Origin: Rufibacter sp. XAAS-G3-1 | GTDB taxonomy: Bacteria; Bacteroidota; Bacteroidia; Cytophagales; Hymenobacteraceae | Direction of reading: 5' to 3' | Assembly: GCF_013623775.1 (NCBI RefSeq) | Contig: NZ_JABFAM010000004.1 | Coordinates: 248,001 to 312,000 of the forward strand | Length of the DNA stretch: 64,000 nucleotides | Part shown: positions 6,001 through 62,931 of the stretch, in pieces | Position numbering within the stretch: the stretch's first letter is position 1 | Layout of the letters: the number at the start of each line of letters is the position of its first letter | The notes under the pieces: generated by a model | The model's input: only the letters and a program-made list of their open reading frames with translations | Databases searched by the model: none | What the model was told of the DNA's origin: nothing | Program-made: the position numbers and the translations under genes

Positions 6001-6444
6001 TACCTGGGCTATGTACAGATAAAGCTAACTACAAAGTAAGGCAAAAGTAATGGCTACGCCAAAAACCAGAAGGCAAGGAATTGAGTTACCCATGCAAACA
6101 CCTCACTCGTTCCCCTAAACGCAGGCATTGAAATATACTTGTAGTAAGCACGGTCTTTGAGAGCCTCTGCTTGTACCGCCGTTTTTAGGCTACTTTTATG
6201 AAAACACGCCAAAAACAAAAGGTTTGTCTGTGCACTGGCACAAGCACCCGCTTGCACCGCCGTTTTTAGGCTATTTTCATGAAAACAGGCCGAAAACCCA
6301 AACCGCTCCTAATGGAAGCAGGACTAATTCAGAAGCTACACAGATAGAAGAAACTTCCCAACCAAAACCCCTAACATACGTTAGGTAGGAAGTTATTTTT
6401 CTGCTAATTTTATGGAAAATTGACTTAAGAAAACAGACTCCTAT
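6001..6444. other. Divergent intergenic gap with one composite repeat
   Basis: 444 bp between two divergently transcribed genes. It contains the composite repeat at 6170-6297. The short open frame at 6054-6257 on the minus strand is made largely of repeat sequence and shows no protein character. I found no convincing promoter match for either flanking gene. Confidence 0.6.
6170..6297. repeat. Composite repeat A, copy 1 (two palindromes)
   Basis: Two copies of the dispersed palindrome (6181-6216 and 6262-6297, both beginning GTTTTTAGGCTA and pairing with GAAAACA(C/G)GCC) are separated by a spacer holding GGTTTGTCTGTGCACTGG and a degenerate CAAGC/GCTTG hairpin. The same arrangement with similar spacer words recurs at 36138-36269. 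The leading words CTTGTACCGCC (6170) and CTTGCACCGCC (6251) show that the unit also contains an internal direct repeat. Confidence 0.8.
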
Positions 6445-7584
6445 ATGCAACTTACCTACAATGAGAATCAGCAAATGATTGCGGACATGATCCGTGACTT
6501 TGGTGCCAAGTCCATAAAACCTGCCATGATGAAATGGGACGAGTCTCAGGAATTCCCCGTTCACGTGTTTAAGCAATTAGGTGAACTGGGGCTTATGGGC
6601 GTGCTGGTGCCGCAAGAATACGGTGGGTCTGGCTTTGGATACCTGGAATATGTGACGGCCATTGCCGAGTTGTCTAAGATAGATGGCTCTATTGGTTTGT
6701 CTATGGCGGCCCATAACTCTTTGTGCACCGGCCATATCCTACAGTTCGGCAGTGAAGAACAAAAAAGAAAGTGGCTGCCTAAGTTAGCGACCGCTGAGTG
6801 GATTGGGGCCTGGGGTCTCACCGAACCTAATACCGGGTCAGACGCGGGTAACATGCGTACGGTAGCAGTAAGAGACGGAGACCATTGGGTTCTAAACGGC
6901 GCCAAAAACTTTATCACCCACGGAAAATCCAGCAACATTGCCGTGGTGATTGCCAGAACCGGCGAAGTAGGCGATTCGCACGGCATGACGGCGTTTGTTA
7001 TTGAGAAACCCACTCAAGGTTTTTCGGCGGGCCGAAAGGAAGACAAACTGGGGATGCGCGCCTCTGAGACTACGGAATTAATCTTTGAAGATTGCCGGGT
7101 ACCCCATGAGAACATCTTAGGCAACGTAGGCGAAGGGTTTATCCAGTCCATGAAAGTGCTGGACGGAGGACGTATTTCCATTGCCGCGTTGAGCTTAGGA
7201 ATAGCGCAGGGTGCGTACGAAGCCGCTTTGGCCTATGCAAAGGAACGCCAGCAGTTCAACAAACCTATTGCTCAGTTCCAGGGCATTGCCTTTAAACTAG
7301 CTGACATGGCCACCGAGATTGAGGCCGCGGCCTTGCTTACCTACCGGGCCGCCGCTATGAAAAACCGGGGCGAAAACGTAACCAAAGAGTCGGCGATGGC
7401 TAAACTATACGCTTCTGAGGTGTGCGTGCGGGCAGCAAACGAAGGGGTTCAGATTTTTGGCGGGTACGGCTATACCAAAGATTATCCGGCTGAGAAATAC
7501 TACCGTGACTCAAAACTTTGCACCATTGGCGAAGGAACTTCAGAAATCCAGAAACTTGTTATCTCCAGAGCAGTATTAAAATAA
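6445..7584 (+). CDS. Acyl-CoA dehydrogenase, short/branched or butyryl type
   Basis: 379 residues, the usual length for soluble short/medium-chain acyl-CoA dehydrogenases. The FAD and substrate signatures are present: AWGLTEPNTGSDAGNMRT in the middle domain and QIFGGYGYTKDYPAEKYYRD in the C-terminal helical domain. The catalytic base is Glu363, just before GTSEIQ. The enzyme oxidises acyl-CoA to trans-2-enoyl-CoA and passes electrons to an electron-transfer flavoprotein. Chain-length preference cannot be fixed from sequence alone; short-chain or branched substrates fit best. It is the first of a plus-strand group but is separated from rpsU by that gene's own promoter. No signal peptide; cytoplasmic. 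Confidence 0.93.
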   Translation: MQLTYNENQQMIADMIRDFGAKSIKPAMMKWDESQEFPVHVFKQLGELGLMGVLVPQEYGGSGFGYLEYVTAIAELSKIDGSIGLSMAAHNSLCTGHILQFGSEEQKRKWLPKLATAEWIGAWGLTEPNTGSDAGNMRTVAVRDGDHWVLNGAKNFITHGKSSNIAVVIARTGEVGDSHGMTAFVIEKPTQGFSAGRKEDKLGMRASETTELIFEDCRVPHENILGNVGEGFIQSMKVLDGGRISIAALSLGIAQGAYEAALAYAKERQQFNKPIAQFQGIAFKLADMATEIEAAALLTYRAAAMKNRGENVTKESAMAKLYASEVCVRAANEGVQIFGGYGYTKDYPAEKYYRDSKLCTIGEGTSEIQKLVISRAVLK

Positions 7585-7597
7585 TTAGGGAAAGGTA

Positions 7598-7628: not shown

Positions 7629-7667
7629 CAATCCTTAAAACAACTGACTTTAAAATCAATCTATTAT

Positions 7668-7862: not shown

Positions 7863-7936
7863 TCTTTATCCCTAGAATTTACGTGGTAATTCCATAAATT
7901 AGTGCGTACCGCTTACCAGCGGCTACTTACTAGTTT

Positions 7937-8815: not shown

Positions 8816-8840
8816 TTCGTAACACCTAAAGAAGTAAACT

Positions 8841-9162: not shown

Positions 9163-9189
9163 AAAAGAGCCCCGTTTTGGGGCTCTTTT
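9163..9189 (+). terminator. Terminator after hpf
   Basis: AAAAGAGCCCC, loop GTTTT, GGGGCTCTTTT, 22 nt after the hpf stop. The stem ends in a T-run, as in an intrinsic terminator. Confidence 0.8.
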
Positions 9190-9569
9190 CGTTAAAACAG
9201 GCTATAAACGAGTCTCTTACACCAAATTACCCACAAAAGTCTTATGGCCGTATTCCCCGTGCCGTTGTTGGTGTGCTCACCATAGCTGTCAGGCTAAGGG
9301 GATATTACCAAGAGTCTACCTATACAAAAGCTTTACCGCCCGCCCTTGTTGCGTGTTTTCACCAACAAGCAAGATGGCTTTGGGTATGGTAGAAGCCTTT
9401 TAGGCATTGCAAAAATGGGGGTTTCCCCTCTTAGCCTGACAGCTATGGTGTTCTCACTCACAACTTCTACTCAGTTCAGTTTGATGGTAGTTTTGAGAAA
9501 GGAACCGATAAAGAATTGTTGGTGATAACACCAACAATGGCACCAAAAATACAAATACCGCTATATAGA

Positions 9570-9596
9570 AAAAGAGCCCCGTTTTAGGGCTCTTTT
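9570..9596 (-). terminator. Terminator after metK
   Basis: AAAAGAGCCC, loop CGTTTTA, GGGCTCTTTT. Read on the minus strand it gives a stem and T-run 28 nt after the metK stop. It is nearly identical to the hpf terminator about 400 bp away. Confidence 0.75.
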
Positions 9597-9623
9597 CGTT
9601 AAAACAGGCGATAATCACACCTC

Positions 9624-11014: not shown

Positions 11015-11086
11015 CATACCTTGCAAATGGGCAATTCTGCCATCTTTTCTTTTAGAAGAAATCTGGCTTATCTGGCCTCTCCCCGC

Positions 11087-11118
11087 TTTTAGGCACTTTT
11101 TAAGAAAACAGCCTAAAA
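11087..11118. repeat. Dispersed palindrome copy
   Basis: TTTTAGGC pairs with GCCTAAAA around an A/T-rich centre. It lies between the divergent metK and PAP2 genes (gap 10929-11239). Besides this and the metK promoter the gap shows nothing else I can name. Confidence 0.75.
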
Positions 11119-11239
11119 ACCAGATTGCCCCTGAGTCTCAACAGCTTTGAAGGCCATACAATCCCGGGCAGAAACCTTTTAAACCTCTTCCCGTTTCAGA
11201 AACATCTTATAATTCATATTTTACCTATTCCTTCCAGCT

Positions 11240-12049: not shown

Positions 12050-12891
12050 TGAGCCGCTTGTCTACGTCCTTTCAGTACCTATTGGCGTGTGTGACCCTGC
12101 TCCAGCTTGCCTTTGCTCCGGTACAGGCGCAAAGCACGGTGAACCGCCTGTACCACACAGATTTGCTGCGCGATGGGCTGATTACCGCCGGAGGGGTTAC
12201 CATGTCGGTAGCAGGTTCTTTGCTGCTCACCAACAAAGAGCAACTGACGGAAGCAGACCTGCTGACCCTAGACAAAAACCAGGTAAATAGGTTTGACCGA
12301 TGGGCCGCCGGCAACTACAGCAAGAAAGCCAAAGATGCCAGCGATGTCTTTTTCTACACGTCGTACGCCCTGCCCTTGCTTTTTCTGGCTGATAAAACCG
12401 CTACTCCGCACCTTAAGGACATTTACTTCCTTTATGCTGAAACCGTGTCTTTGGCCGGGGGGCTTTATGCTTTAACCGCTGGCTTAACCAACCGGAAAAG
12501 GCCCAATGTCTACGCCACCCACGCTCCGCTGGAGGAAAGGCTGCATAAGTATGCCGAGAACTCTTTTTTTGCGGGACATACCGCCGCAACGGCCAGTGTT
12601 GCCTTTTTCACGGCCAAAGTCTTCCATGACCTGCACCCAGATTCGCCCTGGCGCCCGGTGGTATGGGGAGCCGCCGCCGCAGTGCCGGCCACGGTAGGGT
12701 ATTTAAGGCTTAGGGCGGGCAAGCATTTCCTGAGCGATAATATTGTAGGTTATACCGTGGGGGCCACCATCGGGATTCTGGTGCCAGAACTGCATAAGAA
12801 GAACAACCAGATGGGCTGGAGACTTATTCCCGCCGCCGAGCAGTTGCCGGGAGAATTTCTGCAAGGCGTGGCGCTAACAAAGCGTTTTTAG
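12049..12891 (+). CDS. PAP2-like phosphatase family protein, second of a tandem pair
   Basis: 280 residues with a signal peptide ending near PVQAQS (about residue 28). It aligns throughout with the preceding gene: NRFDRWAAGNYSKKAKDASD, NSFFAGHTAATASVAFFTAKVFHD and YLRLRAGKHFLSDNIVGYTVG are shared blocks, so the pair is a tandem duplication with clear divergence. The catalytic His residues (FAGH, and KHFLSD) are kept, while motif 1 is reduced to KRP without the usual spaced Lys. It is probably a periplasmic or membrane-bound phosphatase. The stop codon lies inside a degenerate copy of the dispersed palindrome that begins near 12882. Confidence 0.85.
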   Translation: MSRLSTSFQYLLACVTLLQLAFAPVQAQSTVNRLYHTDLLRDGLITAGGVTMSVAGSLLLTNKEQLTEADLLTLDKNQVNRFDRWAAGNYSKKAKDASDVFFYTSYALPLLFLADKTATPHLKDIYFLYAETVSLAGGLYALTAGLTNRKRPNVYATHAPLEERLHKYAENSFFAGHTAATASVAFFTAKVFHDLHPDSPWRPVVWGAAAAVPATVGYLRLRAGKHFLSDNIVGYTVGATIGILVPELHKKNNQMGWRLIPAAEQLPGEFLQGVALTKRF

Positions 12892-12904
12892 CTTACTTTT
12901 CTAA

Positions 12905-12966
12905 AACTGCCTCTAAAACAGGAAAGCCAGCCCCGTGGGGCTGGCTTTCCTGTTTTAGAGGCAGTT
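12905..12966. terminator. Bidirectional terminator, perfect 30-bp hairpin
   Basis: The left arm 12905-12934 (AACTGCCTCTAAAACAGG... to CAGCCCC) is exactly complementary to 12937-12966, with a 2-nt loop GT. It lies between the convergent PAP2 and S9 peptidase genes. The outer arms (CTCTAAAACAG/CTGTTTTAGAG) carry words of the dispersed palindrome; the inner part is an ordinary G/C-rich terminator stem. Confidence 0.85.
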
Positions 12967-12969: not shown

Positions 12970-15360
12970 CTATTTTGGGCCTGTTTTGTTCAAATTAGCC
13001 TCAAAAAGCTTGAGAATACGCTTGTACTCATCTGTCCAGCTGCTGGGCTCTACAAACCCGTGGTCTTCTATGGGGTAAACGGCCAGCTCCCAGTTTTCCT
13101 TTTTCAGCTCAATCAAGCGCTGTGATAACCGCACAATATCCTGGAAATGCACGTTGGTGTCTACCATTCCGTGGCACATGAGGAGGGCTCCTTTCAAGCC
13201 TTCGGCAAAGTAGATGGGTGAGCTGCGCACGTAGGCCAGACTGTCGCTTTGGGGCTCATTTAAGATGTTGGAGGTGTAGCCGTGGTTATAGTGTGCCCAA
13301 TCAGTCACAGAGCGCAGGGCGGCCCCGGCGGCAAAAACATCTGGTTGGGTAAACATGGCCATGAGGGTAATGAACCCGCCGTAAGAACCGCCGTAGATGC
13401 CAATTCTTTGGGGGTCTACGTTGTATTTCTCCACCAGCAGCCTCGCCCCGTCTACGTGGTCACTCAGGTCTTTTCCGCCCATGTGACGGTAGATGCCCGT
13501 GCGCCAGTCACGTCCGTAACCCGCACTGCCGCGGTAATCAATGTCCAAAACGGTATAGCCTTTGTCTGCCAGAAGATTATGGAACATGTACTCCCTGAAG
13601 TAGGTACTCCACCATTTATGGGCGTTCTGCAGATACCCCGCGCCGTGCACAAATATGACGGCAGGCCCTGTTCCCGAGGCATTCTCTGGCCGGTACAGTC
13701 TGGCATGCACCTCGGCTCCGTCTGCTGCTTTGTAGGTGATCACTTCCGGCTCGCGCCAAGGATAGGCATTAAACTCAGCGGTAGTAGATTTGGTGATTTG
13801 CACCGGTTTGGCACCGGGCCGGTTCTCCATGAGGTATAGCTCCCAGGGCTTGTTGGAATAGGAGTAGCGGATGGCCAGGTTCTTTTCATCTGGCGATATG
13901 GTTACTTCATGCGCCCCGGTCATTCTGGTGATCTGCTCCATTTTTCCGCCCTTCAGCGGCAGTCGGTAGAAATGCTGCTCGCCCGGGTGTACCTGGTTGG
14001 TGGTGAGAAACCAGTACTTTTTATCGTTGGACATTTGGATGCTCTGCACCTCAAACTTACCGCTGGTCAGGGCAGCTTTGTTTCCGGTTGTAGCATTTAC
14101 CGTATATAGGTGCGCATAGCCGCTTTCCTCAGAGAGAAACCACACCTTCTCGTTGTCTGGCAGCCAGCCAATCTCACCGGCACCATAGCCGTTGATCCAG
14201 GCATCGTCATGCTGCCGATCCAGGAGTTTGATTGCCCGGGTAGCGGGATCGAAACCCATGATCCAACGGTCTTTGTTATCCTGAGATCTGGCTACCAGCA
14301 CGGCTTTCTTGCCGTTGGGCGAGTAATACGGCCCAAACATCATGATCTTCCTTTGGCCAGCGGCCGAACGTGCAGAGTCCGCTTTGCCCGTCTTTTGATT
14401 TGTCTGTAGGTAAGCAGGCCGGTCTTGAATGCCAGGCAACGTTTTGAAAGAAACCAGGTAGGTAGTATCCCGCGTGAGGTCATACAGCCCCAGTTCATAG
14501 GTCGCCTGCTCATCGCCCACTTTGGTTCTGGTGGCAATTTCTTCGGTGTAGCCCGATGCCGTGACATAGTTAGGCACTTGTGCAATCTTGCTGTTGGCGG
14601 GTCTTGCCACTAAGCGGTAGGTGATAAACCGCTCATCTGGGCTCAGGATGATGTTATCTACCAATTTGTCTTCGAGGTAGATCTCTTTGGGTCTGCTGCT
14701 GGCCGTTTCTCTCTGGGCCAAGCGCTGCTGTTTCCGGGCTTCCTCTCTCTTTTGGATGATCTGCAACAACTCTACCTGCTGCTCGCGCAGAAAACGTTCC
14801 TGCTTGTCCCTTACCAAGTCTGGATCTACGGGCTTTCTGCCTTTCCTGAAATCGGTTAATTGCCGTGTTTGGCCATTGGCGATGTTCCAGGCATAGAGAT
14901 TGCCGTCTTTCACGTAGGTTACTTCCTGCTCATCAAATGCAAACCCCGGTGACGACTCGCGTTCTACGGTTTTGGTGAGTTGCCTCAGCTTGCCACTCTT
15001 TACGTCTAACAGGAAGAGGTCTCCTCCCCGCTCATACACCCGGTGGGTTCTCTTCTGGTTGTACACTCCCCCGGGCGTGAATAATCTCCTGCGGGCAGCG
15101 GCCGATACTTTGGTTGCTTTTGTGCCTTTTACCTGCACCGTGTACAAAGAGTCTCGTTTCGCTTTCTCAGGATTCCACTGGAAATAGACATTTCTACTAT
15201 CATCAGACCAATAGATGTTACTAGGCGAAGTACCAAGCCACTGGGCGGGATCTTGCATGATCTTATCAACCGTGAGCGTTGGTTTGGTTTGGGCGTTAAT
15301 GGTACATAGGGGTAGTACCAAGGCCACCATTAGTACCCAAGTTGCTTTAATGAGATGCAT
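12970..15360 (-). CDS. S9 family peptidase (DPP IV / prolyl oligopeptidase type), secreted
   Basis: The frame is open from 15390 but the ATG at 15360 (MHLIKATWVLMVALVLPLCTINAQ) gives a clean signal peptide; the 10 codons before it fall in a degenerate dispersed palindrome. An N-terminal DPP IV-like beta-propeller (about 60-520) is followed by the alpha/beta hydrolase domain with Ser in GGSYGG, Asp in MVDTNVH and His in EDHGF (669, 744 and 777 counting from 15390; subtract 10 for this start). Such enzymes remove dipeptides, often after Pro or Ala, in the periplasm or at the surface. It begins 42 nt after the amidase stop and is likely cotranscribed. The last codons (NLNKTGPK) overlap another palindrome-like stretch. 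Confidence 0.92.
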   Translation of the reverse strand: MHLIKATWVLMVALVLPLCTINAQTKPTLTVDKIMQDPAQWLGTSPSNIYWSDDSRNVYFQWNPEKAKRDSLYTVQVKGTKATKVSAAARRRLFTPGGVYNQKRTHRVYERGGDLFLLDVKSGKLRQLTKTVERESSPGFAFDEQEVTYVKDGNLYAWNIANGQTRQLTDFRKGRKPVDPDLVRDKQERFLREQQVELLQIIQKREEARKQQRLAQRETASSRPKEIYLEDKLVDNIILSPDERFITYRLVARPANSKIAQVPNYVTASGYTEEIATRTKVGDEQATYELGLYDLTRDTTYLVSFKTLPGIQDRPAYLQTNQKTGKADSARSAAGQRKIMMFGPYYSPNGKKAVLVARSQDNKDRWIMGFDPATRAIKLLDRQHDDAWINGYGAGEIGWLPDNEKVWFLSEESGYAHLYTVNATTGNKAALTSGKFEVQSIQMSNDKKYWFLTTNQVHPGEQHFYRLPLKGGKMEQITRMTGAHEVTISPDEKNLAIRYSYSNKPWELYLMENRPGAKPVQITKSTTAEFNAYPWREPEVITYKAADGAEVHARLYRPENASGTGPAVIFVHGAGYLQNAHKWWSTYFREYMFHNLLADKGYTVLDIDYRGSAGYGRDWRTGIYRHMGGKDLSDHVDGARLLVEKYNVDPQRIGIYGGSYGGFITLMAMFTQPDVFAAGAALRSVTDWAHYNHGYTSNILNEPQSDSLAYVRSSPIYFAEGLKGALLMCHGMVDTNVHFQDIVRLSQRLIELKKENWELAVYPIEDHGFVEPSSWTDEYKRILKLFEANLNKTGPK

Positions 15361-15402
15361 TTTTAAGCTTATTTTTGAAAAACACGTCAAAAAGGAAAGA
15401 GA

Positions 15403-17240: not shown

Positions 17241-17280
17241 CTGTTTAGAGGCTATTTTCCGCAAAGCAGCTTCTAAACAG
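17241..17280. repeat. Dispersed palindrome copy
   Basis: CTGTTTAGAGGCTATTTTCC pairs with GCAGCTTCTAAACAG. It lies in the 348-bp gap 17077-17424, which otherwise holds only the terminator at 17355-17420. Confidence 0.75.
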
Positions 17281-17354: not shown

Positions 17355-17420
17355 GCCATCTTCCTTTATAACAAAAGAGCCGTCTTGAGAGACGGCTCTT
17401 TTGTTATAAAGGAAGATGGC
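17355..17420 (-). terminator. Terminator of SusCD pair 1, perfect 31-bp hairpin
   Basis: 17355-17385 (GCCATCTTCC... to GAGCCGTCT) is exactly complementary to 17390-17420, with loop TGAG. It begins 4 nt after the SusD stop. The length of the perfect stem far exceeds what termination needs. Confidence 0.85.
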
Positions 17421-22132: not shown

Positions 22133-22543
22133 CTCTTAACATTACTTTCAAGCTAATTCATTGAACAAAAAAAAGCCAGAGGACGTATAAGCGCCCCTTT
22201 TACATATTCCAAAAATTAGATATTTGAATCTAAACCGCTCACATTAGACAAAAATTTGCAAATCCATCATAAAAACAATGAATGCATTAAGGCTTTTACA
22301 ACCTTAAACCGCAAGCATTATAATTTAAATACCTCAACACTATTTTTCTTCTTTAAAGATTTCTTTTGTGCTTCAGTTCTGGAACAAAGCACAACAATTA
22401 GGGCACTTCCTCCTAACCGGCATTCTGCGTTTGGCAAAGCTTACCAAAATCATACCCCTTAAACTCCTTTCTATCTCAAGCCTGAACAGCATCATGGCCA
22501 CTGATCTCCGCGTGGAATAAGCAGACTGACACCAAAGCCTTGC

Positions 22544-22577
22544 TTAAGGCGTACTTTTGAAAAAGGAGCCTGAAAAC
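22544..22577. repeat. Dispersed palindrome copy, degenerate
   Basis: TTAAGGCGTACTTTTGAAAA followed by GGAGCCTGAAAAC, a weakened family member. The surrounding gap (22062-22704) also holds the SusC promoter and the terminator at 22639-22681; the AT-rich 22150-22500 stretch shows nothing else I can support. Confidence 0.6.
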
Positions 22578-23870: not shown

Positions 23871-23932
23871 CCAATAAACGTCCGTTTTTGGCCTGTTTTC
23901 CTGAAAACAGGCCAAAAACGGACGTTTATTGG
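23871..23932. repeat. Perfect dispersed palindrome containing the TauE stop codon
   Basis: 23871-23900 (CCAATAAACGTCCG... to CTGTTTTC) is exactly complementary to 23903-23932, with a 2-nt centre CT. The core TTTTTGGCCTGTTTTC/GAAAACAGGCCAAAAA is the family consensus. The stop codon of the TauE gene (23926-23928) lies inside the right arm, so the last codons are read from the repeat. It could act as terminator. Confidence 0.85.
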
Positions 23933-27420: not shown

Positions 27421-27462
27421 AGCGTTTTCTGCCTGATTTTCAGAAAACAAGCAGAAAACGCT
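27421..27462. repeat. Dispersed palindrome copy
   Basis: AGCGTTTTCTGC (27421-27432) pairs exactly with GCAGAAAACGCT (27451-27462), with inner CTGATTTTCAGAAAACA. It lies between the divergent lamin-tail and asd genes. Confidence 0.8.
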
Positions 27463-28641: not shown

Positions 28642-28681
28642 CTGTTTTAAGGCTGTTTTTGGAAAAACAGCCTTAAAACAG
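28642..28681. repeat. Perfect dispersed palindrome between convergent genes
   Basis: CTGTTTTAAGGCTGTTTTT (28642-28660), centre GG, AAAAACAGCCTTAAAACAG (28663-28681): a perfect 19-bp stem. It ends 6 nt from the phosphoesterase stop and could serve as that gene's terminator. Confidence 0.85.
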
Positions 28682-28687: not shown

Positions 28688-30274
28688 TTACTGCTTCACC
28701 GTCTTCTTGAGGTCAATTCTGTAGCTGCTTCTCTGGGTGAAGGTTCTGCCGAACATGTCTGTGGCTTTCACCTCAATGGTATGTTCCCCAACAGGTAGTT
28801 TGGTGGGAATACTGCCCCGCCATACGTGCGTAGACTGAACGGCGTTTGAGGGCCGTCGGCCGGGCATCAGTTCTTCTGCGTAATCCCACTCCTGCAGGCT
28901 GTGCAGAAAGGTAGGGTCATGTTGTTTCTGGTACTCCATCTTTTGCCACGCACCGTTGTCTACCCGGTACATCACCGTATCCCGCTCACTGCCCATGAAG
29001 AAGTTCACATAGATGCCGGCCGAGGTGTTTCTGCCTTGTTCTACCACTTTGGGGGCAAAAACCTCCATCTGGTACTCTTCGGGTTTACCGGCTACTTTGT
29101 AGTCCACCACGTATTGGTTGCCTTTGAAGCGGAGGAAGGCATAGCCTTTGGGGGTTCCGTCACGCATGGTAGAGACGGGCACGCCCGCTTCGTTCAGCTT
29201 GCCTGAGTACCAGTCACCGGAGGTAGTGCCCACGTTGTAATGGTGGTGCGGCTTTTGTTGCCGCCAGCCTTCTGCCTGCGTGAAGAAATCCTGTTTCTGC
29301 AAATGCGTATGCGCTGAAAGGGAAAGAGTATGGGGAAAATCTTTGAGCAAATCAAAAAGCCGTTGCCGATCCTCGTCGCGGAAGGCGTCTCCGTCTGGTT
29401 CGCTCAACGGAATATGGAACGCCAGCACCACCAAGTGGTCTTTGGGCACGAATTTCAGGTCGTTCTCCACAAAGTCCAGCTGGTCTTTCCGGAAACCGCC
29501 CCAATAACTTTTGCCGTCCCGAGGGTCTGGGTAAAGCACATCATCCAGCACAATGAAATGGACTTTGCCGTAGTTGAAGGCGTAGTTGGCCGGCCCAAAG
29601 TGCGCCTCAAACGTTTCATCAGACAGGGAGTCGGCGGGGGCATCAAAATCCAGGTCGTGGTTACCCAGCAGGTTATACCACGGGATACCCGCCTTTTTCA
29701 CCGCCTCAATGTAGGGGTTGAACAGGTTGAGGTCGTTTCCCACCAAATCTCCCAGGCTAAGCCCGAAAGGCACCTCTTTGATTCCTTCTACCTCAGAGAC
29801 AATGCCCCGGGCAAAAAAATCCACTTCTTCTCTGGTATAGGGCTGGGGGTCACCAAAAATAAGGGCCGTAAAGTCTTCTTTCTCCCTGACCGGTAACAAC
29901 GCAAAATCTACTGACCTAGGAAGCTTACCGGTGGGCGCCACTCCTTTGAATTTGAGGGCCGGTGAACCTTGAGGTTTATGAATGTAATAGAACTGGGGCA
30001 GGTTCTGCTGGTTAAGGGCAACCTGGTAGCCGCTGGGCTTGATCACCGACAGGATGTTGTCCTGCCCTACGGGTAGGGCATATTCTCCATTTTTATCCGT
30101 TAACACCACTTCGCGGCCATTGGAGACCGCCACCTGGGCAATGCCTTTTTCGGTTCGGTCTTTCTTGCCGTTTCCGTTGGTGTCAGCAAATACGTAGCCG
30201 TTGGCGGTGGTTTGCGCCTGCAGGGTAAGGGAAAAGCACAGACCGGCCATCAATAAAAACTGTTTCTTCATCAT
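28688..30274 (-). CDS. Calcineurin-like metallophosphoesterase, secreted
   Basis: 528 residues. The signal peptide ends near LTLQAQT (about residue 20). An N-terminal Ig-like/carboxypeptidase-regulatory domain follows (GYVFADTNGNGKKDRTEKGI... about 25-110). The phosphoesterase core has GDPQ, SLGDLVGND, LGNHDLDFD and SAHTH, which supply the dinuclear metal ligands, and a C-terminal beta domain from about 370. This architecture matches the family whose C-terminal domain is named calcineurin-like phosphoesterase C-terminal. It should hydrolyse phosphate esters outside the cytoplasm. It follows SusCD pair 2 on the same strand after 212 nt, suggesting that the pair imports a phosphorylated or phosphate-releasing nutrient; that is inference. 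Confidence 0.9.
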   Translation of the reverse strand: MMKKQFLLMAGLCFSLTLQAQTTANGYVFADTNGNGKKDRTEKGIAQVAVSNGREVVLTDKNGEYALPVGQDNILSVIKPSGYQVALNQQNLPQFYYIHKPQGSPALKFKGVAPTGKLPRSVDFALLPVREKEDFTALIFGDPQPYTREEVDFFARGIVSEVEGIKEVPFGLSLGDLVGNDLNLFNPYIEAVKKAGIPWYNLLGNHDLDFDAPADSLSDETFEAHFGPANYAFNYGKVHFIVLDDVLYPDPRDGKSYWGGFRKDQLDFVENDLKFVPKDHLVVLAFHIPLSEPDGDAFRDEDRQRLFDLLKDFPHTLSLSAHTHLQKQDFFTQAEGWRQQKPHHHYNVGTTSGDWYSGKLNEAGVPVSTMRDGTPKGYAFLRFKGNQYVVDYKVAGKPEEYQMEVFAPKVVEQGRNTSAGIYVNFFMGSERDTVMYRVDNGAWQKMEYQKQHDPTFLHSLQEWDYAEELMPGRRPSNAVQSTHVWRGSIPTKLPVGEHTIEVKATDMFGRTFTQRSSYRIDLKKTVKQ

Positions 30275-30486
30275 TTTTATAAAAAGAGAGTAGAAATAAA
30301 GGGGATTATGCGGGGGCCCGCTAGCTTAAAATTCGCTTTCTCAGAGTCATCACGGCCACCACCGGGTAAGTGGTCAGAGGCAAGTACCCGGTGCCCAGAA
30401 ACGCTGAACTTGCTGCCGGGCGTGAAGGCAGGAAGCCACCCCAAAGGCGGCCCCAGCTTCTAAAAGGCGAATAAGGTTTCTTACGC

Positions 30487-36137: not shown

Positions 36138-36269
36138 CTTGTTCTGTCGCTTTCAGGCTACTTTTATGAAAACAGGCCAAAACAAGAGGTTTATTTGCAC
36201 ACTGGCGTAAGCATCCCCCACTTGTACCTCCGTTTTCAGGTTATTTTTATAAAAACAGGCAGAAAACGC
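36138..36269. repeat. Composite repeat A, copy 2
   Basis: Palindromes at 36149-36183 (CAGGCTACTTTTATGAAAAC) and 36231-36269 flank a spacer with AGGTTTATTTGCACACTGGC and a degenerate GTAAGC/ACTTGTAC hairpin. Order, spacing and many words match 6170-6297. Confidence 0.8.
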
Positions 36270-41906: not shown

Positions 41907-41945
41907 CTGTTTTAGGCTTACTTTCGCGAAAAACATGTCTAAATA
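41907..41945. repeat. Dispersed palindrome copy, degenerate
   Basis: TGTTTTAGGCTTACTTTCGC followed by GAAAAACATGTCTAAA. It lies in the gap 41806-42139 between two terminators; nothing else was seen there. Confidence 0.65.
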
Positions 41946-42051: not shown

Positions 42052-42090
42052 AAAACAGCAGAGGCGCTCAATGAGCGCCTCTGCTGTTTT
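42052..42090 (-). terminator. Terminator of the 42140-43207 lipoprotein gene
   Basis: AAAACAGCAGAGGCGCTCA (42052-42070) pairs exactly with TGAGCGCCTCTGCTGTTTT (42072-42090). It is fused at its right to a degenerate palindrome copy (42087-42124, TTTTTGCCTTACTTTTCC then AAACAAGCC). Confidence 0.8.
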
Positions 42091-42139
42091 TGCCTTACTT
42101 TTCCTAAAACAAGCCAATTTCAGCTTTTCTGCTTAAAGG

Positions 42140-43952: not shown

Positions 43953-44334
43953 CCCCCTGAAGGCAAGAACCACCGCCCTGTTTCTTGGGTAGTTTTGGAA
44001 AAGTAGTGATAAACTAGAATATTCCCTCGTTTGCGTCCCACGAGTGTGGGTTACCTGCGACCTCTGGCCGCTTCTTGGCATAAGTACCCAGACAGAGTAC
44101 TTTCTATTTCTACTGTCCTACCTTATTGTCAATCCTGAAAGGATCTTGTGGGCAGAACATCTTTGTAGTAAGCGCAATTACCGTTGGCTACCAAGATCCG
44201 TCCAGGAGGACAACAAAGAAGCAGGCCAAACGAAGGTAGTCTCCAGACTTATTTGTGGTGTTTTCAAAGCGGCGGGACGCCGAAGGTAGCCCATACTCGC
44301 GGGAGGCGAGCGGGAGAATATTCTGTTTATAAAC

Positions 44335-44388
44335 AAGACATCCGTTTTTGGCCAGTTTTACAGAAAACAGACCAAAAGCGGATGTCTT
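44335..44388. repeat. Dispersed palindrome copy, long arms
   Basis: AAGACATCCG (44335-44344) pairs with CGGATGTCTT (44379-44388) around a family core (TTTTTGGCCAGTTTTACAG, AAAACAGACCAAAAG). Confidence 0.8.
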
Positions 44389-47419: not shown

Positions 47420-47948
47420 AAGGCGAACGGGAAGTAGTTTTGTTTAGCTAGGATTGGGTTTGGAGATCTGAAAATAGCGGAAAATCGGGAGTTAACGAAA
47501 CATGGTATGGGGTTTGTCTTTGCCTTCATCCACAAATCACTTCACCTAGAAAAAGAAAGCTGTTTTGGGGCTGTTTTCCGGAAAACAGCCCCAAAACAGC
47601 TTTGGCTTATCTTGTAGCAAGCCTGTTTCAACTGGCAGTTCTTTTACCCAGAGCCGGGAGCATTCCCCCTTCTTCTTTTAGGTAAGCCCGCCTGCAACCA
47701 GAAACAGTCCTTTCTATAATTACTTAATAAGCAGTATTGTACGCACAGAAAATAGCGTCTACCTTGCTTTTACCCTACGTTTAGCCCCTAAGGCTATTGG
47801 ACCACCTGCCCCAGGAGATTGTTTTCCTGCCCCGCGCGCTTCCACTGCTAGCTATAGCCTGGCTTCTCTCACAGGAGCAGCCTCTACGTTGCTCCGCTTC
47901 AAAAGCCTATACTCCTTCACTATCTTATTCAATCATAGAAACACACGC
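47420..47948. other. Divergent gap with a perfect palindrome
   Basis: 529 bp between the VPS10-like gene and a small lipoprotein gene. It holds the 48-bp palindrome at 47556-47603; the remainder shows no gene and no confident promoter. Confidence 0.5.
47556..47603. repeat. Perfect 48-bp palindrome, family prototype
   Basis: AAAGCTGTTTTGGGGCTG (47556-47573) runs through TTTTCCGGAAAA to CAGCCCCAAAACAGCTTT with no unpaired centre, so the whole 48 bp equals its own reverse complement. It is the most symmetrical copy of the dispersed family and lies upstream of both neighbouring genes, so it is not simply a terminator. Confidence 0.9.
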
Positions 47949-48430: not shown

Positions 48431-49246
48431 TTAGAAAGAATTAGCGCTCCGGTACCGCTGGGTATTGGCCGGGTATAAGGCCTCCGCGAACTTGAGCAAG
48501 GCTTGGCGGGTGAGGGCGGTATTTTCAAACATGCCCATGTGGCCCACGTGCCCCAGAAAATACGTCATGCTGTTCTGGGGCAGGTGGCACTGCTGCAAGA
48601 CGGCCTCCAGGGGTACCGCCGGGTCTTCTTTGCCTACCAGGAAGAAAACAGGAAGCGCGGTGGTCTTGAGCACCTCACTTCTATCTGGTCGGTCACGCAT
48701 GGCCTCCAGACAGCCCAGAATGGTTTCCAAAGGCGTGGCTTTGCCGATGGCCTGCATTCTCTGGATATCGTCTTTACAGGAAGTGCGGTTACTTTCCGCG
48801 AAAAGCGGGGCTACCAGGGTGTCCATAAACTTCTCTACCCCATGTTTCTGCACAAAGGCGGCGGTTTTGTCGCGGTTTTCCTTTTTCTCCTGGGTGTCTG
48901 GCAGGGCGCTGGAGTGGAACAGGCACAGTCCATACAACAGGTCAGGGAACAGTTCGGCCAAGGCCATTCCTACGTAACCGCCCATGGAGTGCCCAACCAA
49001 CAGACATTTCTCCACCTCTAACGCTTTCAGCGTTTCCTGCACCTGCCGGGCTTGGTTCTCCATAGAGAAATCAGGGGCCATGGGGCTTTCGCCGTGACCG
49101 GGCAAGTCCAGGGCGATAATCCTGAACTGGTGCACGAGCGGTTTGGTGAAATCAGTCCAGAGATCTTTGCTTTCGCAGAAACCGTGAAGAAAGACGATGG
49201 CGGGGCCAGAACCGGCGTCTGTATAGGCAAGGGTGGTAGTAGTCAT
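48431..49246 (-). CDS. Alpha/beta hydrolase fold protein
   Basis: 271 residues. The oxyanion-hole motif HGF is at residues 21-23, the nucleophile elbow GHSMGG carries Ser87, Asp208 is in GKEDP and His236 in GHVGHMGMFE, so the triad is complete. The size and the helical cap (about 120-180) fit epoxide-hydrolase or lactonase-like esterases. The substrate is unknown. No signal peptide; cytoplasmic. It is convergent with the small lipoprotein gene, 26 bp apart, with no obvious terminator between them. Confidence 0.9.
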   Translation of the reverse strand: MTTTTLAYTDAGSGPAIVFLHGFCESKDLWTDFTKPLVHQFRIIALDLPGHGESPMAPDFSMENQARQVQETLKALEVEKCLLVGHSMGGYVGMALAELFPDLLYGLCLFHSSALPDTQEKKENRDKTAAFVQKHGVEKFMDTLVAPLFAESNRTSCKDDIQRMQAIGKATPLETILGCLEAMRDRPDRSEVLKTTALPVFFLVGKEDPAVPLEAVLQQCHLPQNSMTYFLGHVGHMGMFENTALTRQALLKFAEALYPANTQRYRSANSF

Positions 49247-49791
49247 TTGGTCTTTTATTTTTAGCTTGGTTTACGGAAAGAAGGCAGAAAACAGTTATTT
49301 CCCGCTTCTAATTACCTTTTGTAATCATAAGGCTATGTGGTTCTAATTTGCCGCAACACAAGCCACGGCTCTTTTCTTACTGGTTCTACCGGCCATCAAA
49401 ACCCCATGATTACCATAAAAGGTGGTTTTCTCTTTCATAAAACGTAGTGATCTCCTCAGAGAAAGACATCTGCTCCCGGAGAAAAGCATTTTGGCGGACA
49501 CGTGCAGATCAATGATCATGTAAATAGCCAGCGCGAGCAGCCAGGAAATATCATAAATCTTGACTTTCTCTGGCTTAGGGCTGCGGGTGATGCCACAGGA
49601 ATATGAAATAATTTCCTGGAAGATCCCATTTTTTAGAATTTGTTACCGGCAAAAAGGGTTCTTACTCCCATTCTCCTTAGGATACACGCTTCCTCTTTAG
49701 GGCTACTTTCTGGAAATTGGCCTAAAAACAAAAAGCCCTCACTGGTTTTGAAACCTGAGAGGCCTTTCTGTTTTATCTATCAAATCAATAA
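49247..49791. other. Gap with a possible gene remnant and one palindrome
   Basis: 545 bp. On the minus strand a frame stays open from about 49637 to a stop at 49343-49345, with hydrophobic IYDISWLLALAIYMIIDLHV but no suitable start, possibly a decayed gene. A degenerate palindrome lies at 49696-49727. An imperfect hairpin at about 49732-49772 (AAGCCCTCACTGG with ACCTGAGAGGCCTT) may end dxs transcription. Confidence 0.4.
49696..49727. repeat. Dispersed palindrome copy, degenerate
   Basis: TTTAGGGCTACTTTCTGG followed by AAATTGGCCTAAAAA. Confidence 0.65.
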
Positions 49792-51708: not shown

Positions 51709-51848
51709 AGGGGTGCACTTGGGTGGATATTTATGCAACAACGTAAGCCTTTGAAAGTTTTAGCTTATACGTATCCGCACTCAGTCAAAGGGTAAAATTA
51801 AGGATTTTTTCTGAGAGGTCATTTTTTGTACCCGCCGCTGGGCGTTCA

Positions 51849-51884
51849 TTTTTAAGCTGAATTGTGAAAAACAGCTTGAAAACA
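51849..51884. repeat. Dispersed palindrome copy, degenerate
   Basis: TTTTTAAGCTG pairs with CAGCTTGAAAA around AATTGTGAAAAA. Confidence 0.65.
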
Positions 51885-51975
51885 GCACAATTGTGGTTTT
51901 TGGGCTTGTGCTTCCTGTTTTGGTTGTAACCTCACCCCCAGCCCCTCTCCCGCGGAGAGGGGGGGCCCGCTGATG

Positions 51976-52015
51976 CGTTTTAAGGCTGTTTTTAGGAAAA
52001 CCGGCCTAAAACGGG
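51976..52015. repeat. Dispersed palindrome copy
   Basis: CGTTTTAAGGCTGTTTTT pairs with AAAACCGGCCTAAAACG. Confidence 0.75.
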
Positions 52016-52110
52016 GTACCCTAAAGGTAGAGACCAGGCACTGCCTTGTCTCCTACACGCATTGCTTTCCAAGGTTGGTTTTTTCTGTGGGTGCAGATTT
52101 CGCCCCAGTG

Positions 52111-52278
52111 GTTTAGGGCTGTTTTACGGAAAATGGGCCGGAAACGGCATTGGCGTAGACACTCGTAGGAGCTGCGCGCACTATGAGGTCTTTGGAGCGG
52201 GCGGCATCGCAGAGAACGGGCCAGAAACGCTAGAAACCTGCGAGGTCTTGGAGACCTCACAGGTTTGAAACTAACTGG
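52111..52278. repeat. Composite repeat B, copy 1
   Basis: 168 bp: a palindrome-like head (GTTTAGGGCTGTTTTACGG, then GGCCGGAAACGG), a spacer with GAGGTCTTTGGAGCGGGCGG, a second GGGCCAGAAACGC half-site, and a hairpin AAACCTGCGAGGTC/GACCTCACAGGTTT (52234-52266). The same 168-bp arrangement recurs at 59427-59594. Confidence 0.8.
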
Positions 52279-52348
52279 TGCGGAGCATCTGCTTGGGGAC
52301 AGCGTACCAGGTGGCCGGGCACTCCTGGCAAATCCTGGACTGATGCGC

Positions 52349-52387
52349 CGTTTTTGGGCAGAATTTCAGAAATCAGCTCAAAAACAG
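52349..52387. repeat. Dispersed palindrome copy, degenerate
   Basis: CGTTTTTGGGCAGAATTTC followed by AGAAATCAGCTCAAAAACAG. Confidence 0.65.
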
Positions 52388-54288: not shown

Positions 54289-54293
54289 CCCTG

Positions 54294-54327
54294 TTTTGGG
54301 CCTGTTTTTGCAGAAACAGGCCCAAAA
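54294..54327. repeat. Dispersed palindrome at the 3' end of the flippase gene
   Basis: TTTTGGGCCTGTTT (54294-54307), loop TTGCAG, AAACAGGCCCAAAA (54314-54327). It could act as terminator. The rest of the gap 54289-54644 shows nothing. Confidence 0.8.
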
Positions 54328-54644
54328 TGCCATTCCGCCGGGCACCCCATAGCCTGCGCTTCTTCCTTTCCATTGTCTCTTTTCCGCCGGAAAACCTACC
54401 CTTGTTTTGCGGGAGGCCCGGCGGTCTCCTACTTTTCCATTCACCTCCCTGCGCTATCTTCCGTAAAAGAAGAGGCCTGCTCTTCGCCGCGGGCGATGGC
54501 CTCCCGAGAGGGCGATTTTCTCTATGGGTAGCCGCTGCTTTTAAGGTGCCAAATAGCCAAAACTCAATTTCTCACGTATCTACTGTATTGCCTAATTTCT
54601 AAAGGGCATCTAGTCAGACACTTCAAAAACTATAAATTACTCCT

Positions 54645-55154: not shown

Positions 55155-55194
55155 CTGTTTTAGGCCTGCTTTTCTAAAAACAGGCCTAAAACAG
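55155..55194. repeat. Dispersed palindrome copy
   Basis: CTGTTTTAGGCCTG (55155-55168) pairs exactly with CAGGCCTAAAACAG (55181-55194). It lies 18 nt after the DUF4199 stop and could end that transcript. Confidence 0.8.
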
Positions 55195-56030: not shown

Positions 56031-56061
56031 AAAAACGCCTGGTGGGTGGCCAGGCGTTTTT
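56031..56061 (-). terminator. Terminator of ndk
   Basis: AAAAACGCCTGG (56031-56042), loop TGGGTGG, CCAGGCGTTTTT (56050-56061). It lies 22 nt after the ndk stop. Confidence 0.88.
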
Positions 56062-56083
56062 GCTATCTTTTCTGAAAAAGAGC

Positions 56084-56503
56084 TTAGAAACGCTCGTCGG
56101 CAGTGAAGAAGAAGTTTCCTTCAATCTGGGCGTTCTCATCAGAATCAGAACCGTGCACGGCGTTGGCTTCCATTGATTTGGCGTAGATCTTTCTAATGGT
56201 TCCTTCCTCAGCCTGGGCTGGGTTAGTGGCCCCAATCAAGGTACGGAAGTCCAGAACGGCGTTGTCTTTCTCCAGGATCATGGCCACAATGGGGCCAGAG
56301 CTCATGTATTTCACCAGGTCGCCGTAGAAAGGGCGCTCTTTGTGCACCTCGTAGAACTGACCGGCGCGCTCCTCCGTAAGGCGGGTCTTTTTCAGGGCTA
56401 CTACTCTAAAGCCAGCCTCTTCCATCATTTTGGTGATCCCGCCAATGTGGTTGTCCTGCACGGCGTCTGGTTTAATCATGGTGAACGTTACGTTTCCAGC
56501 CAT
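56084..56503 (-). CDS. ndk: Nucleoside diphosphate kinase
   Basis: 139 residues, full length. The phosphorylated His117 lies in the signature NAVHGSDS. The N-terminal [11 protein letters not shown], the [22 protein letters not shown] block and the [18 protein letters not shown] block are typical. It transfers the terminal phosphate between nucleoside triphosphates and diphosphates. A TACTTTTG element at 56545-56552 on the minus strand matches the -7 promoter consensus, 41 nt upstream, but no -33 element stands at the proper distance. It is divergent from nrnA. Confidence 0.97.
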
Positions 56504-58743: not shown

Positions 58744-58754
58744 TTCATACGTGT

Positions 58755-59426: not shown

Positions 59427-59594
59427 CGTTTTGGGGCTGCTTTGCGGGAAAGAGGCAGGAAACGGTATTGGCACAGACGCTCGCAGGTTTGAAGCCGCTA
59501 CGAGGTCTTTGGAGTGGGCGGTATTGCGGAAAACAGGCTGGAAACGCGAAAACCTGTGAGGTATTGGAGACCCTCACAGGTTTAAAATCATCTG
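59427..59594. repeat. Composite repeat B, copy 2
   Basis: 168 bp matching 52111-52278 in order: GTTTTGGGGCTGCTTTGCGG, GGCAGGAAACGGTATTGGC, GAGGTCTTTGGAGTGGGCGG, AACAGGCTGGAAACGC, and the hairpin AAACCTGTGAGGT/ACCCTCACAGGTTT. It lies in the gap 59277-59757. Confidence 0.8.
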
Positions 59595-60552: not shown

Positions 60553-62868
60553 CTACTGCACGGCTATCTTGGTCATGCACGTCTGTGTTCCATCTGCCGA
60601 GGAAGCCAGGACGATGTATACCCCGGGTTTGGCTTTGCGGCCATTGTAATCACGCCCGTGCCACGCAAAGGTGCCGCCGGCTGCTTTGCCTTCAAACACC
60701 AGGAACCCGGCCACATCCGTGATTTTCACCCACCCATTGTCAGGTACCCCAGAGATACCTATGTTCCCGGAGAACCCGATGCGAACCGGATTAGGGTAAA
60801 CCTGCAGGCAATTCTTGTTCACAGTTTCGGTGCGGGTGGCTGTTCCCCTGAAAACCGCAATTCCGCCTTCAGTACCAATGAGTACTTCTCCGGTAGAAGG
60901 ATCTACGCAGAGGTCTATGATTTTATCAGACGGCAAGGGGCTGTTTTTGGTGGTGAAGTGGAGGATCATCTCTTCGCCGGTTTCATGGAAGAGCCACAGT
61001 CCGGTATCGGTACCAATCCATTTGCGGTTACCGCCGTCAACGGCTATGCTTCTGATTACTTGTCCTTGCAGCAAAGGGCGGCGCTCATAGATGGGCAGAT
61101 AGGCCCCGGCGTAGGAAGAGGTAAAAATCTCTGGGGTACTACTGAAGACGGCTACCCCGCTGTTAGTACCGGCCCAGATTTCCCCTTGCTGGTCAACCGC
61201 CAATGCAAATACCTGCTTGCCCGGTAAACCGCCCTGTCCGGCACCGCCAATGTACGCGTATTTAGCCGTGAGGTCGTCATACACCACCATGCCGGCATCG
61301 GTGCCATTGGTGCTAATGGTAACCCATTTGTAGCCGCTGTCATCCACTACCACCTTATCCAGGCCGCTGCCTAAGCTATAGCCGGTGAAAGGATGCGACT
61401 TCCAGGTGCCATCCGGCTTCAGTTCGAACAGTCCCGGAGCATTGGCGAACTGGTTTCTGTTGGTGACCCACACACTTCCGGCGGCATCAATAGCGATGCC
61501 CGGTACCCTGATGAAATTACGGTCATTCGCGTCTAGGGCGCTGAGGAGAGGACTGTTGGTGTTGTTATAAAGTTTCACCTGGTTCAGGTTGTCCCATTCC
61601 AACAAGCCCGCTCCGTAACTGGCAATGTATAATTTCCCATTTACCGGGTTGCGGCGGGCCATGACCAGATCTCTGGCGTTGGGGGGGAACTGGCCGCCAC
61701 TGGCAAAGTTGTAGCTAGTCCACTGCCCGTTTTGGTACTGGTAGAACCCCGCCGGGGAAGAACGTTGCAGATAGCCCTGGCTGTAGCCGCCACCTAAAAC
61801 GGTGAACAACCCTCGTTCTGCATACACCCCAAACACATCTACAAAGGCAGGCCCGTTGGGCACATGCGCGATAGCCCCCGCATTAGTAACCTGCACCAAT
61901 CCTTTTTCATAACTGGCCGCCCATACCCCGCCCGCTCTGGCGGGAATGGCCATGCGGAGGTTCTGGAACAGCGGCTGAAGAAGGCGGGAAGCCTGCCCCG
62001 TGGAAGATACCTCCAGCACTTCCTGGGCTCCCGTTATCAGCAATCTTTTCCCGTTGGTTTCCATAGACCTGAACTGATGATCCTGCGTGGAGAAACCAGC
62101 TTTGCTCCAAGTGGTACCGTTGAACCGATATACCCCGGTTCCGTTTACGCCTGCATACACGCCACCCTCAAAGGCAGAAATCGTTTTAACAGCGTCTGCG
62201 CTTATTCCTACCGGTAGCCCCTGAGAGGCGTCAAACCGGCGCCAGCTTCGGAAATCCAGGAGGTTGGGGTTGTTGAGATTTGCGGACATCACGCCGTTAG
62301 AAGAAGCGATGTACAGGCTGTCATGCCATACGGTGGAAGAGAACACCTGCACGGCCTCGCCCTTCGCTCCCAGATTGCTGTAAGTGTCTTTGATTTCAAG
62401 CTTCACCAGATCTACCACCACCAGCCCGAAGGAGGTAGACACGAAGGCCATTTTATTATGGGTGTAGAGGTGATGGATGATCTTAGCCCCCGTCATAGGC
62501 TTGCGTACCAGTTCGGTCAGGTTATGCACCTTTCCGTCCTTCAGCAGATCAAGGTTGGTGTTCTCGTAGGCCACTACCAGCGTAGCCGATACTGAATCAT
62601 AGTTGAGCGTGTTGAGGTTGACGTCACTGAAACCATTAGTTCGGGAGAGTTTCTGGAGCGTATGGTCTTCTTTGAGGTAGCGGAAAAAGCCATCTTCGGT
62701 GGCACAATACACGGATGAAGGCGTTTCTGCCACTGCTTTGGCCCGGTGGTTAGGCACATGCACCTGCCACCCGCCCAGCGGCAGCTGACTGGATTGGGCA
62801 TTGGCTCCTGAACTCCCCAAAAGAGCACTCAGCACCACTGCAAACCTGACTATTCTAGGCAGCGTCAT
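60553..62868 (-). CDS. porZ: PorZ-like type IX secretion beta-propeller protein
   Basis: 771 residues. The signal peptide ends near SGANAQS (about residue 25). LPLGGWQVHVPNHRAKAVAETPSSVYCATEDGFFRY is the characteristic PorZ start. Two seven-bladed-type propellers follow with repeats such as SSNGVMSANL, VYAGVNGTGVYRFNG, IASYGAGLLEWD, IWAGTNSGVAVF, KWIGTDTGLWLF and VLIGTEGGIAVF. The C-terminus is a T9SS sorting domain (LQVYPNPVRIGFSGNIGI... GVYIVLA). In Porphyromonas, PorZ is a surface part of the attachment complex that delivers anionic LPS to secreted cargo. Its presence implies a functional type IX system in this organism. Confidence 0.88.
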   Translation of the reverse strand: MTLPRIVRFAVVLSALLGSSGANAQSSQLPLGGWQVHVPNHRAKAVAETPSSVYCATEDGFFRYLKEDHTLQKLSRTNGFSDVNLNTLNYDSVSATLVVAYENTNLDLLKDGKVHNLTELVRKPMTGAKIIHHLYTHNKMAFVSTSFGLVVVDLVKLEIKDTYSNLGAKGEAVQVFSSTVWHDSLYIASSNGVMSANLNNPNLLDFRSWRRFDASQGLPVGISADAVKTISAFEGGVYAGVNGTGVYRFNGTTWSKAGFSTQDHQFRSMETNGKRLLITGAQEVLEVSSTGQASRLLQPLFQNLRMAIPARAGGVWAASYEKGLVQVTNAGAIAHVPNGPAFVDVFGVYAERGLFTVLGGGYSQGYLQRSSPAGFYQYQNGQWTSYNFASGGQFPPNARDLVMARRNPVNGKLYIASYGAGLLEWDNLNQVKLYNNTNSPLLSALDANDRNFIRVPGIAIDAAGSVWVTNRNQFANAPGLFELKPDGTWKSHPFTGYSLGSGLDKVVVDDSGYKWVTISTNGTDAGMVVYDDLTAKYAYIGGAGQGGLPGKQVFALAVDQQGEIWAGTNSGVAVFSSTPEIFTSSYAGAYLPIYERRPLLQGQVIRSIAVDGGNRKWIGTDTGLWLFHETGEEMILHFTTKNSPLPSDKIIDLCVDPSTGEVLIGTEGGIAVFRGTATRTETVNKNCLQVYPNPVRIGFSGNIGISGVPDNGWVKITDVAGFLVFEGKAAGGTFAWHGRDYNGRKAKPGVYIVLASSADGTQTCMTKIAVQ

Positions 62869-62890
62869 ATCTAAAGGTACACAGGATTGA

Positions 62891-62931
62891 GCCTGTTTTT
62901 ACTTTGTTTTCCCTAAAACACGCGGAAAACG
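62891..62931. repeat. Dispersed palindrome copy, degenerate
   Basis: GCCTGTTTTTACTTTGTTTTC followed by CTAAAACACGCGGAAAACG, between the UbiA stop and the porZ start. Confidence 0.6.

Follow-up and report, generated by a model that had tools for sequence, protein, structure and literature searches.

What are the palindromes that recur between the genes of Rufibacter sp. XAAS-G3-1? The window analyzed here, a stretch of 64,000 nucleotides (contig NZ_JABFAM010000004.1, positions 248,001 to 312,000), holds many copies of a palindromic element, which an initial annotation had described as a dispersed family with covarying arms, either a selected structure or a mobile unit resembling the repetitive extragenic palindromes (REPs). 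We found that the element is a rigid 36-bp dyad, that its halves are nearly independent of one another in most copies, that it is restricted to one genus among the genomes searched, that many copies keep their positions between species, and that its spelling differs between species in the manner of dialects. The fixed length, the symmetry, the near-independence of the halves, the conservation at motif positions and the shared positions fit a dimeric DNA-binding protein. From the sequence we give about an even chance that the sites are bound by a putative protein of this kind at the boundaries of transcription units, the protein, its dimeric state and the boundary role all belonging to that reading. 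The overall interpretation of the initial annotation was partly supported.

The site is made of two facing 18-bp half-sites, GTTTTnRGSCTGTTTTyn and its mirror. The dyad contains four A/T tracts, and both tracts of one half lie 11 bp apart. A loose consensus was matched at 20 or more of 28 positions by 27 sites in the window, compared to a mean of 0.4 in 20 block-wise dinucleotide shuffles, and at 21 or more by 22 sites (0.05 in the shuffles). Shuffled sequence held far fewer sites rather than similar numbers, which confirmed that the dispersed family is real. Applied to another 400-kb piece from this genome, the scan gave 200 sites, and 4 in the reversed sequence. A refined symmetric 36-bp matrix (30 bits) was trained on the 464-kb sample that also provided the own-genome counts, and the relatives lay outside this training; reversed sequence was the control for matrix scans. 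The matrix identified 344 sites in the 464 kb versus 16 in the control at the 5% threshold, 313 versus 2 at a score of at least 12, and 289 versus 0 at a score of at least 16. The 313 sites extrapolate to about 3,600 per genome. Twenty evenly spaced pieces of G006, another genome of the genus, extrapolate to about 1,800. In the window, 28 of the 29 coordinates listed by the initial annotation coincided with a matrix site, all 28 scoring at least 16; the exception was 24773, where the best local score was 4.3.

The geometry of the element was nearly invariant. GTTTT and AAAAC separated by 26 bp occurred 86 times in the 464 kb, and each other gap from 18 to 35 bp occurred 0 to 5 times. Facing half-sites were offset by 18 bp in 214 cases, by 17 in 6 and by 19 in 3. 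Lone half-sites were few, with 12 among 399 half-sites at a threshold of 16 (2 in the control). A hairpin should accept loops of variable length, which the 36-bp element does not, and this rigidity counts against a hairpin. The fixed spacing of half-sites, together with halves that contribute independently apart from a small residual correlation at positions 5-6, is what is expected of an operator.

The pairing between the arms led to the same distinction. Over all 312 copies, 11.38 of 18 pairs matched, compared to 10.89 when the halves were re-paired between copies. The stem extends beyond the core by at least 3 further pairs in 49 copies, and these had 14.29 matched pairs versus 12.30 after re-pairing. 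The remaining 263 copies had 10.83 versus 10.66 (sd 0.09), and positive covariation at positions 5 and 6 only. Position 9, a G or C in most half-sites, showed no pairing excess over all 312 copies (extension being set at a flank stem of at least 5 in this analysis and in that of flank composition) but did pair in the extended-stem subset of 49 copies. G006 gave a similar division, with 14.53 pairs versus 13.46 in 36 extended copies and 12.32 versus 12.06 in the other 144. With a flank stem of at least 4 defining extension, the predicted folding energy of 276 short-stem copies averaged -10.67 versus -9.91 for re-paired halves (p = 0.26), and that of 36 longer-stem copies averaged -25.78 versus -14.84; the same split was seen in G006. 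For the bulk of the family, a hairpin selected through covariation, as had been proposed, was not supported. At the same stem cutoff, a TTTT run lay within 10 nt of 16 of the 72 ends of extended stems but of only 16 of the 552 other ends, so that part of the extended-stem minority looks like intrinsic terminators. A paired stem followed by a T run was lacking in the bulk and fitted the extended-stem subset better.

The range of the element was assessed with a strict pattern. Allowing two mismatches, it was present in all 16 Rufibacter-group genomes at 128 to 1,735 places each; of 188 further genomes in the family, 9 had it, at one or two places each. The reversed pattern was absent throughout both sets. 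Allowing one mismatch, none of a sample of 394 additional genomes of the phylum gave a match. The exact pattern was found in at least 103 stretches, and the 80 from named genomes among the matches listed belonged to Rufibacter species and Sabulibacter ruber, although records of or near the genome itself may be missing from these matches. One viral contig also carried an exact match (L227 1275-1310). Around dxs, where the DNA of different species is 81-87% identical, the matrix found 10-15 sites per 20 kb in each of 13 relatives, 158 sites in total versus 4 in the control, and the matrix appeared the same by eye. Across 19 pieces representing other genera and families, 5 sites scored at least 12 (2 in the control); the one that reached 16 lay in a G035 piece that had been chosen for that site. 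Near-palindromes in several of the other-genus pieces did exceed shuffles, for example 6 versus 1.4 with at least 13 of 18 pairs in L078, and other genera may have sister systems with other motifs. Strict-pattern copy number was uneven across the genus (16-951 forward matches). This unevenness is partly a matter of spelling, since matrix density around dxs was 10-15 per 20 kb in the 13 relatives, yet density still varies in the genus (7.55 per 20 kb in the evenly spaced G006 pieces). A search for literature on palindromes or intergenic repeats of Rufibacter or Hymenobacteraceae found no such elements, in a coverage that left most subscription journals outside.

Many sites were held in place between species. 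Thirty sites of the genome, each within 160 nt of an anchored gene in three regions, were compared with the relatives, and a site was counted as kept if one lay within 15 nt of the same offset. The offset was kept in 249 of 386 comparisons, compared to 311 of 1930 random offsets (16%), and 14 of the 30 sites were kept in at least 80% of relatives. The site at 52350..52385 (score 33.7) is centered 99 nt upstream of the start of ORF 52467 (plus strand), and a site lay at 98-100 nt in 13/13 relatives, although it scored merely 12.3 in G002 and 19.3 in G011. The site at 49257..49292 (score 29.4), missed by the initial annotation, is centered 28 nt upstream of the start of ORF 48431-49246 (minus strand), with a counterpart at 26-33 nt in all 13 relatives. 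Also newly found was the site at 56056..56091 (score 30.0), centered 10 nt beyond the stop of ORF 56084 (minus strand) and over its last codons, with a counterpart 10 nt past the stop in every relative. The 195-bp divergent gap that adjoins this last site contained no site scoring 10 or more in the genome itself or in the 13 relatives. In seven orthologous sets, identity was 0.92-0.98 at the eight central columns of the T/A tracts versus 0.32-0.62 in the flanks at distances above 5 bp.

The spelling of the sites was partly shared within genomes. Among dxs-region sites, the similarity of half-sites within a genome was 0.6247, compared to 0.609 under chance labelling (sd 0.0045; 0 of 300 permutations as high). 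The strongest differences between genomes were at positions 5, 6, 12 and 13 (chi-square p 2e-48 to 1e-78, in tests that treat half-sites as independent, with 9-313 sites in each of 15 genomes), and positions 3, 4 and 15 did not differ at p < 0.05. Position 12 was C in 96% of G012 half-sites (5-36% elsewhere) and G in none (44-79% elsewhere), position 5 was A in 68% of those of G005, and position 6 was T in 96% of those of G013. Likeness was highest for the same locus in different genomes (0.69), lower for different loci of one genome (0.65) and lowest for different loci in different genomes (0.62), an order which indicates that homogenization within a genome is partial. As a separate observation, the halves of G012 sites were often unlike at position 13, with A on one side and G on the other, which hints at oriented sites.

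The sites lay mostly between genes, as called mechanically from open reading frames (ORFs). Of 200 consensus hits, 164 were centered outside ORFs of at least 100 aa, though such ORFs cover 82% of the sequence. Gaps of 100-200 bp held a site in 32/48 cases between tandem genes, in 5/8 between convergent genes and in 3/16 between divergent genes. The earlier statement that copies occur in all three kinds of gap was borne out, divergent gaps being poorer, and the sites are not only terminators, as it had also stated. The 122 gaps shorter than 50 bp held 5 sites together. The interval 15-40 nt past stop codons was enriched, with 57 sites versus 29 expected. Where a promoter match to the Bacteroidota-type consensus was present, 17 of 23 sites lay upstream of it, compared to 52% when positions within these gaps were drawn at random. 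No trend with chromosome position was seen by eye in the 20 evenly spaced G006 pieces (1-11 sites each). One 20-kb piece of this genome (L237, 2.26-2.28 Mb) had a single site, low ORF cover and, by eye, a recombinase-like ORF; it is possibly acquired DNA still without the sign.

Under the reading we favor, the ligand would likely be a DNA-binding protein that recognizes its sequence as a dimer and is confined to the genus Rufibacter. The sites lie mostly at the boundaries of units, either a short way past a stop codon or terminator or ahead of the gene that follows, and the bound protein may act as a boundary or architectural mark that limits read-through or the spread of supercoils, or that organizes the nucleoid. 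The location of the sites is what suggests boundary marking. The dialects would reflect co-evolution of the protein with its sites, a minority of sites would have become parts of intrinsic terminators, and longer mobile repeats would carry some of the copies. Noc-, SlmA- and MatP-type sites, of which there are tens to about a hundred per genome, are likewise dyad-symmetric, fixed in geometry and repeated around the chromosome, with protein recognition putative here; the present sites differ in numbering thousands and in lying at gene boundaries. More tentatively, and with somewhat less confidence than in the favored reading, the thousands of rigid dyads at conserved gene boundaries, similar to one another within a species and shifted together into dialects, could be seen as a genus-wide DNA addressing code, of which the literature searched gave no description. 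Such a code would call for a dedicated trans-acting recognizer and for one of two processes, the mass co-evolution of about 1,800-3,600 sites or a molecular drive of the type proposed for uptake sequences. If this is right, one genus has a DNA sign of several thousand sites that fits neither REPs, uptake sequences nor terminators. A single pull-down could then find the recognizer, with the natural dialects as ready-made specificity variants, and the system would make it possible to test directly how dispersed sites can be respelled together by the thousand, and whether transcription units in bacteria are separated by sequence-specific boundary proteins.

Several results weigh against protein binding at unit boundaries. 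No binding protein was identified. An expansion of HU/IHF (PF00216) as the binder was rejected: each of 35 genomes had 1-2 matches, the genus had no more than the others, and the copy number is uninformative. Selection acting site by site does not easily explain how thousands of sites in one species could be respelled together. A small pairing excess persists in copies that lack an extended stem, at positions 5-6 in G000 and at positions 6, 7, 13 and 17 in G006. In the window's 33 sites, the pair counter gave 41 cells changed on both sides versus 26.2 in shuffles (reached by 4 of 500), and the covariation score was 0.214 versus 0.156 (reached by 0 of 500). This excess favors the arm covariation of the initial annotation, which stands for the window, but the larger sample assigns most of it to the extended-stem minority and leaves little in the bulk. 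At a threshold of 11, the excess of lone half-sites is larger (124 versus 76 in the control, among 662). Four of the 30 tested sites were kept in no more than 20% of relatives. The promoter evidence comes from 23 sites. For some sites the start codon follows at 28-70 nt, and a tightly bound obstacle at such a place would impede transcription.

A feature that is hard for selection site by site, the joint drift of dialects at largely shared positions, is what a driven self-recognition sequence would produce. In this alternative a receptor would prefer signed DNA, as in DNA uptake sequences, and recombination would spread and standardize the sign, so that places stay while dialects drift together. 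We consider it unlikely, though with points in its favor: copies that number about 1,800-3,600 per genome by extrapolation, restriction to a genus, and an intergenic location that is partly in terminator-like stems. Excerpts of two reports describe the DNA uptake sequences (DUS) of Neisseria as present in high copy number, with dialects and with inverted pairs in terminators (PMC3630211, PMC2397512). The Rufibacter sites resemble these and the uptake signal sequences (USS) of Pasteurellaceae in reaching up to thousands of copies, in having dialects and in being associated with intergenic DNA and terminators. However, known uptake sequences are single short units, whereas the 36-bp dyad is obligate and rigid with few lone halves; the sites are also strongly intergenic (44 of 265 matrix sites scoring at least 14 lay inside ORFs of at least 200 aa) and belong to another phylum, Bacteroidota.

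A palindrome spread by a transposase and then decaying, like a REP or a miniature inverted-repeat transposable element (MITE), is in our view improbable. Parts of one source (PMC3733652) describe REPs and the bacterial interspersed mosaic elements (BIMEs) built from them as extragenic palindromes of 20-40 bp in high copy number, single or paired with linkers, in GTAG and CGTC classes linked to REP-associated tyrosine transposases (RAYTs). The present element is likewise a high-copy extragenic palindrome, of 36 bp, single or paired. It is unlike them in that the GTAG/CGTC tag is absent from the refined matrix and from the flank composition, and in that its length is fixed, many of its positions are conserved between species and its number does not follow that of Y1/RAYT genes. 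Some mobility is nevertheless evident, and the earlier proposal of a mobile unit survives to that extent: 113 of 227 sampled copies share flanking sequence with another copy, and there are longer repeats in which two sites recur at a constant distance, including a family that ends in inverted repeats as MITEs do. The other 114 copies have no flank in common with another copy in the sample. Together with the offsets kept across the genus (249/386), the concentration of constraint at matrix positions and the similar density around dxs in 13/13 relatives, this argues against mobility as the general explanation. About as improbable, or slightly more so, are RNA hairpins acting as terminators or as stabilizers of mRNA 3' ends. 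Such hairpins would account for the 49 copies with strong arm matching and extended stems, for the TTTT runs at the ends of extended stems (16/72 versus 16/552), and for two orthologous sets, each at the apex of a long stem with outer parts that, as judged by eye, vary in both arms from species to species. They would not account for the other 263 copies, with little pairing excess and no significant folding advantage, for the rigid length, or for the sites upstream of genes.

Transposase genes were compared with the sites across the genus. Y1 matches (PF01797) numbered 0 to 6 in the 16 genomes, with Spearman correlations to the site counts of 0.05 and 0.07, and G007 had no Y1 match yet 330 strict sites. 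The genome itself has one Y1 match, a RAYT-like gene (L029 1258-1824) flanked, by eye, by unrelated inverted repeats, with one site of the family about 200 bp away; this gene and its own inverted repeats possibly form a small separate REP system. RAYT mobilization as the main cause, and with it the RAYT-driven REP family suggested earlier, was rejected on the lack of correlation and on the different repeats at the Y1 gene, PF01797 being the one transposase family searched.

A repeat of about 340 bp at 51947..52282 suggests how copies may spread. It contains dyad sites at 51977..52012 (score 44.6) and 52110..52145 (score 38.5), and has more than 10 further matches in the genome. The dxs gap that holds it is 725 bp long, compared to 358-367 bp in 8 of 13 relatives, and it is this added DNA that contains the two extra sites. 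Given the shorter gap in most relatives, the repeat looks like an insertion in the lineage of this genome. Longer repeats thus bring in new sites in addition to the conserved ones. Two other repeat families were observed. One, MITE-like and roughly 220 bp long, carries CTGTTTAGAGTTTT inverted repeats at its ends and a pair of dyad sites spaced by 81 bp (C25 102608, 7776, 236 and 365671). The second, also a long repeat, has an internal AAACCTGTGAGGTCT...AGACCTCACAGGTTT hairpin beside a dyad site (C25 103035, 159358, 181060, 337965 and 139240).

The remaining window sites are given with their refined-matrix scores and without strand; the window holds 33 sites scoring at least 16 in total. Within ORF 1888-2640 (minus strand) is a site at 2414..2449 (27.5) that had not been listed. 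A pair with 81-bp spacing, identified by matrix and alignment, lies at 6181..6216 (40.8) and 6262..6297 (45.5), and another, with 83-bp spacing, at 36149..36184 (30.9) and 36232..36267 (38.9). Inverted repeats coincide with several sites: the left half of 9174..9209 (41.1) overlaps a hairpin (inverted repeat I25), 12884..12919 (29.9) overlaps a repeat with 30-nt arms at 12905-12966, and 23884..23919 (48.9) forms the apex of one with 32-nt arms and has a flank stem of 15 bp. Shorter flank stems were found at 17243..17278 (34.9; 4 bp) and 27424..27459 (36.5; 3 bp), and 17 of 18 pairs match at 28644..28679 (47.9). Further sites are located at 9581..9616 (35.3), 11085..11120 (38.0), 12972..13007 (32.1), 15359..15394 (28.2), 22542..22577 (28.4), 59428..59463 (34.8) and 62895..62930 (31.4). 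A weak dyad site at 30262..30297 (17.8) had been overlooked, and another weak site is present at 41909..41944 (17.6).

The other sites could be followed in the relatives. A weak site at 42086..42121 (19.7) was near the same offset in 7/12, and another at 43980..44015 (16.7), also absent from the earlier list, was at the same offset in 3/13. The site at 44344..44379 (36.3; flank stem 9 bp) was at this offset in 0/13, with a site elsewhere in the gap in 13/13. The site at 47562..47597 (49.4) has 18 of 18 pairs matched and a flank stem of 6 bp; the gap held a site in 13/13 relatives, within 15 nt of the offset in 9/13. Centered 80 nt past the dxs stop, the site at 49694..49729 (30.9) adjoins a terminator-like hairpin (by eye) and was kept in 11/13. 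The site at 51848..51883 (30.6) was at the same offset in 5/13, that at 54293..54328 (40.0), centered 22 nt after the stop of ORF 53227 (plus strand), was kept in 12/13, and that at 55157..55192 (45.8) kept its offset in 4/12. Comparison of the window with Rfam families gave 0 matches above the gathering score. A perfect inverted repeat with 31-nt arms at 17355-17420, located between minus-strand ORFs, is unrelated to the dyad family.

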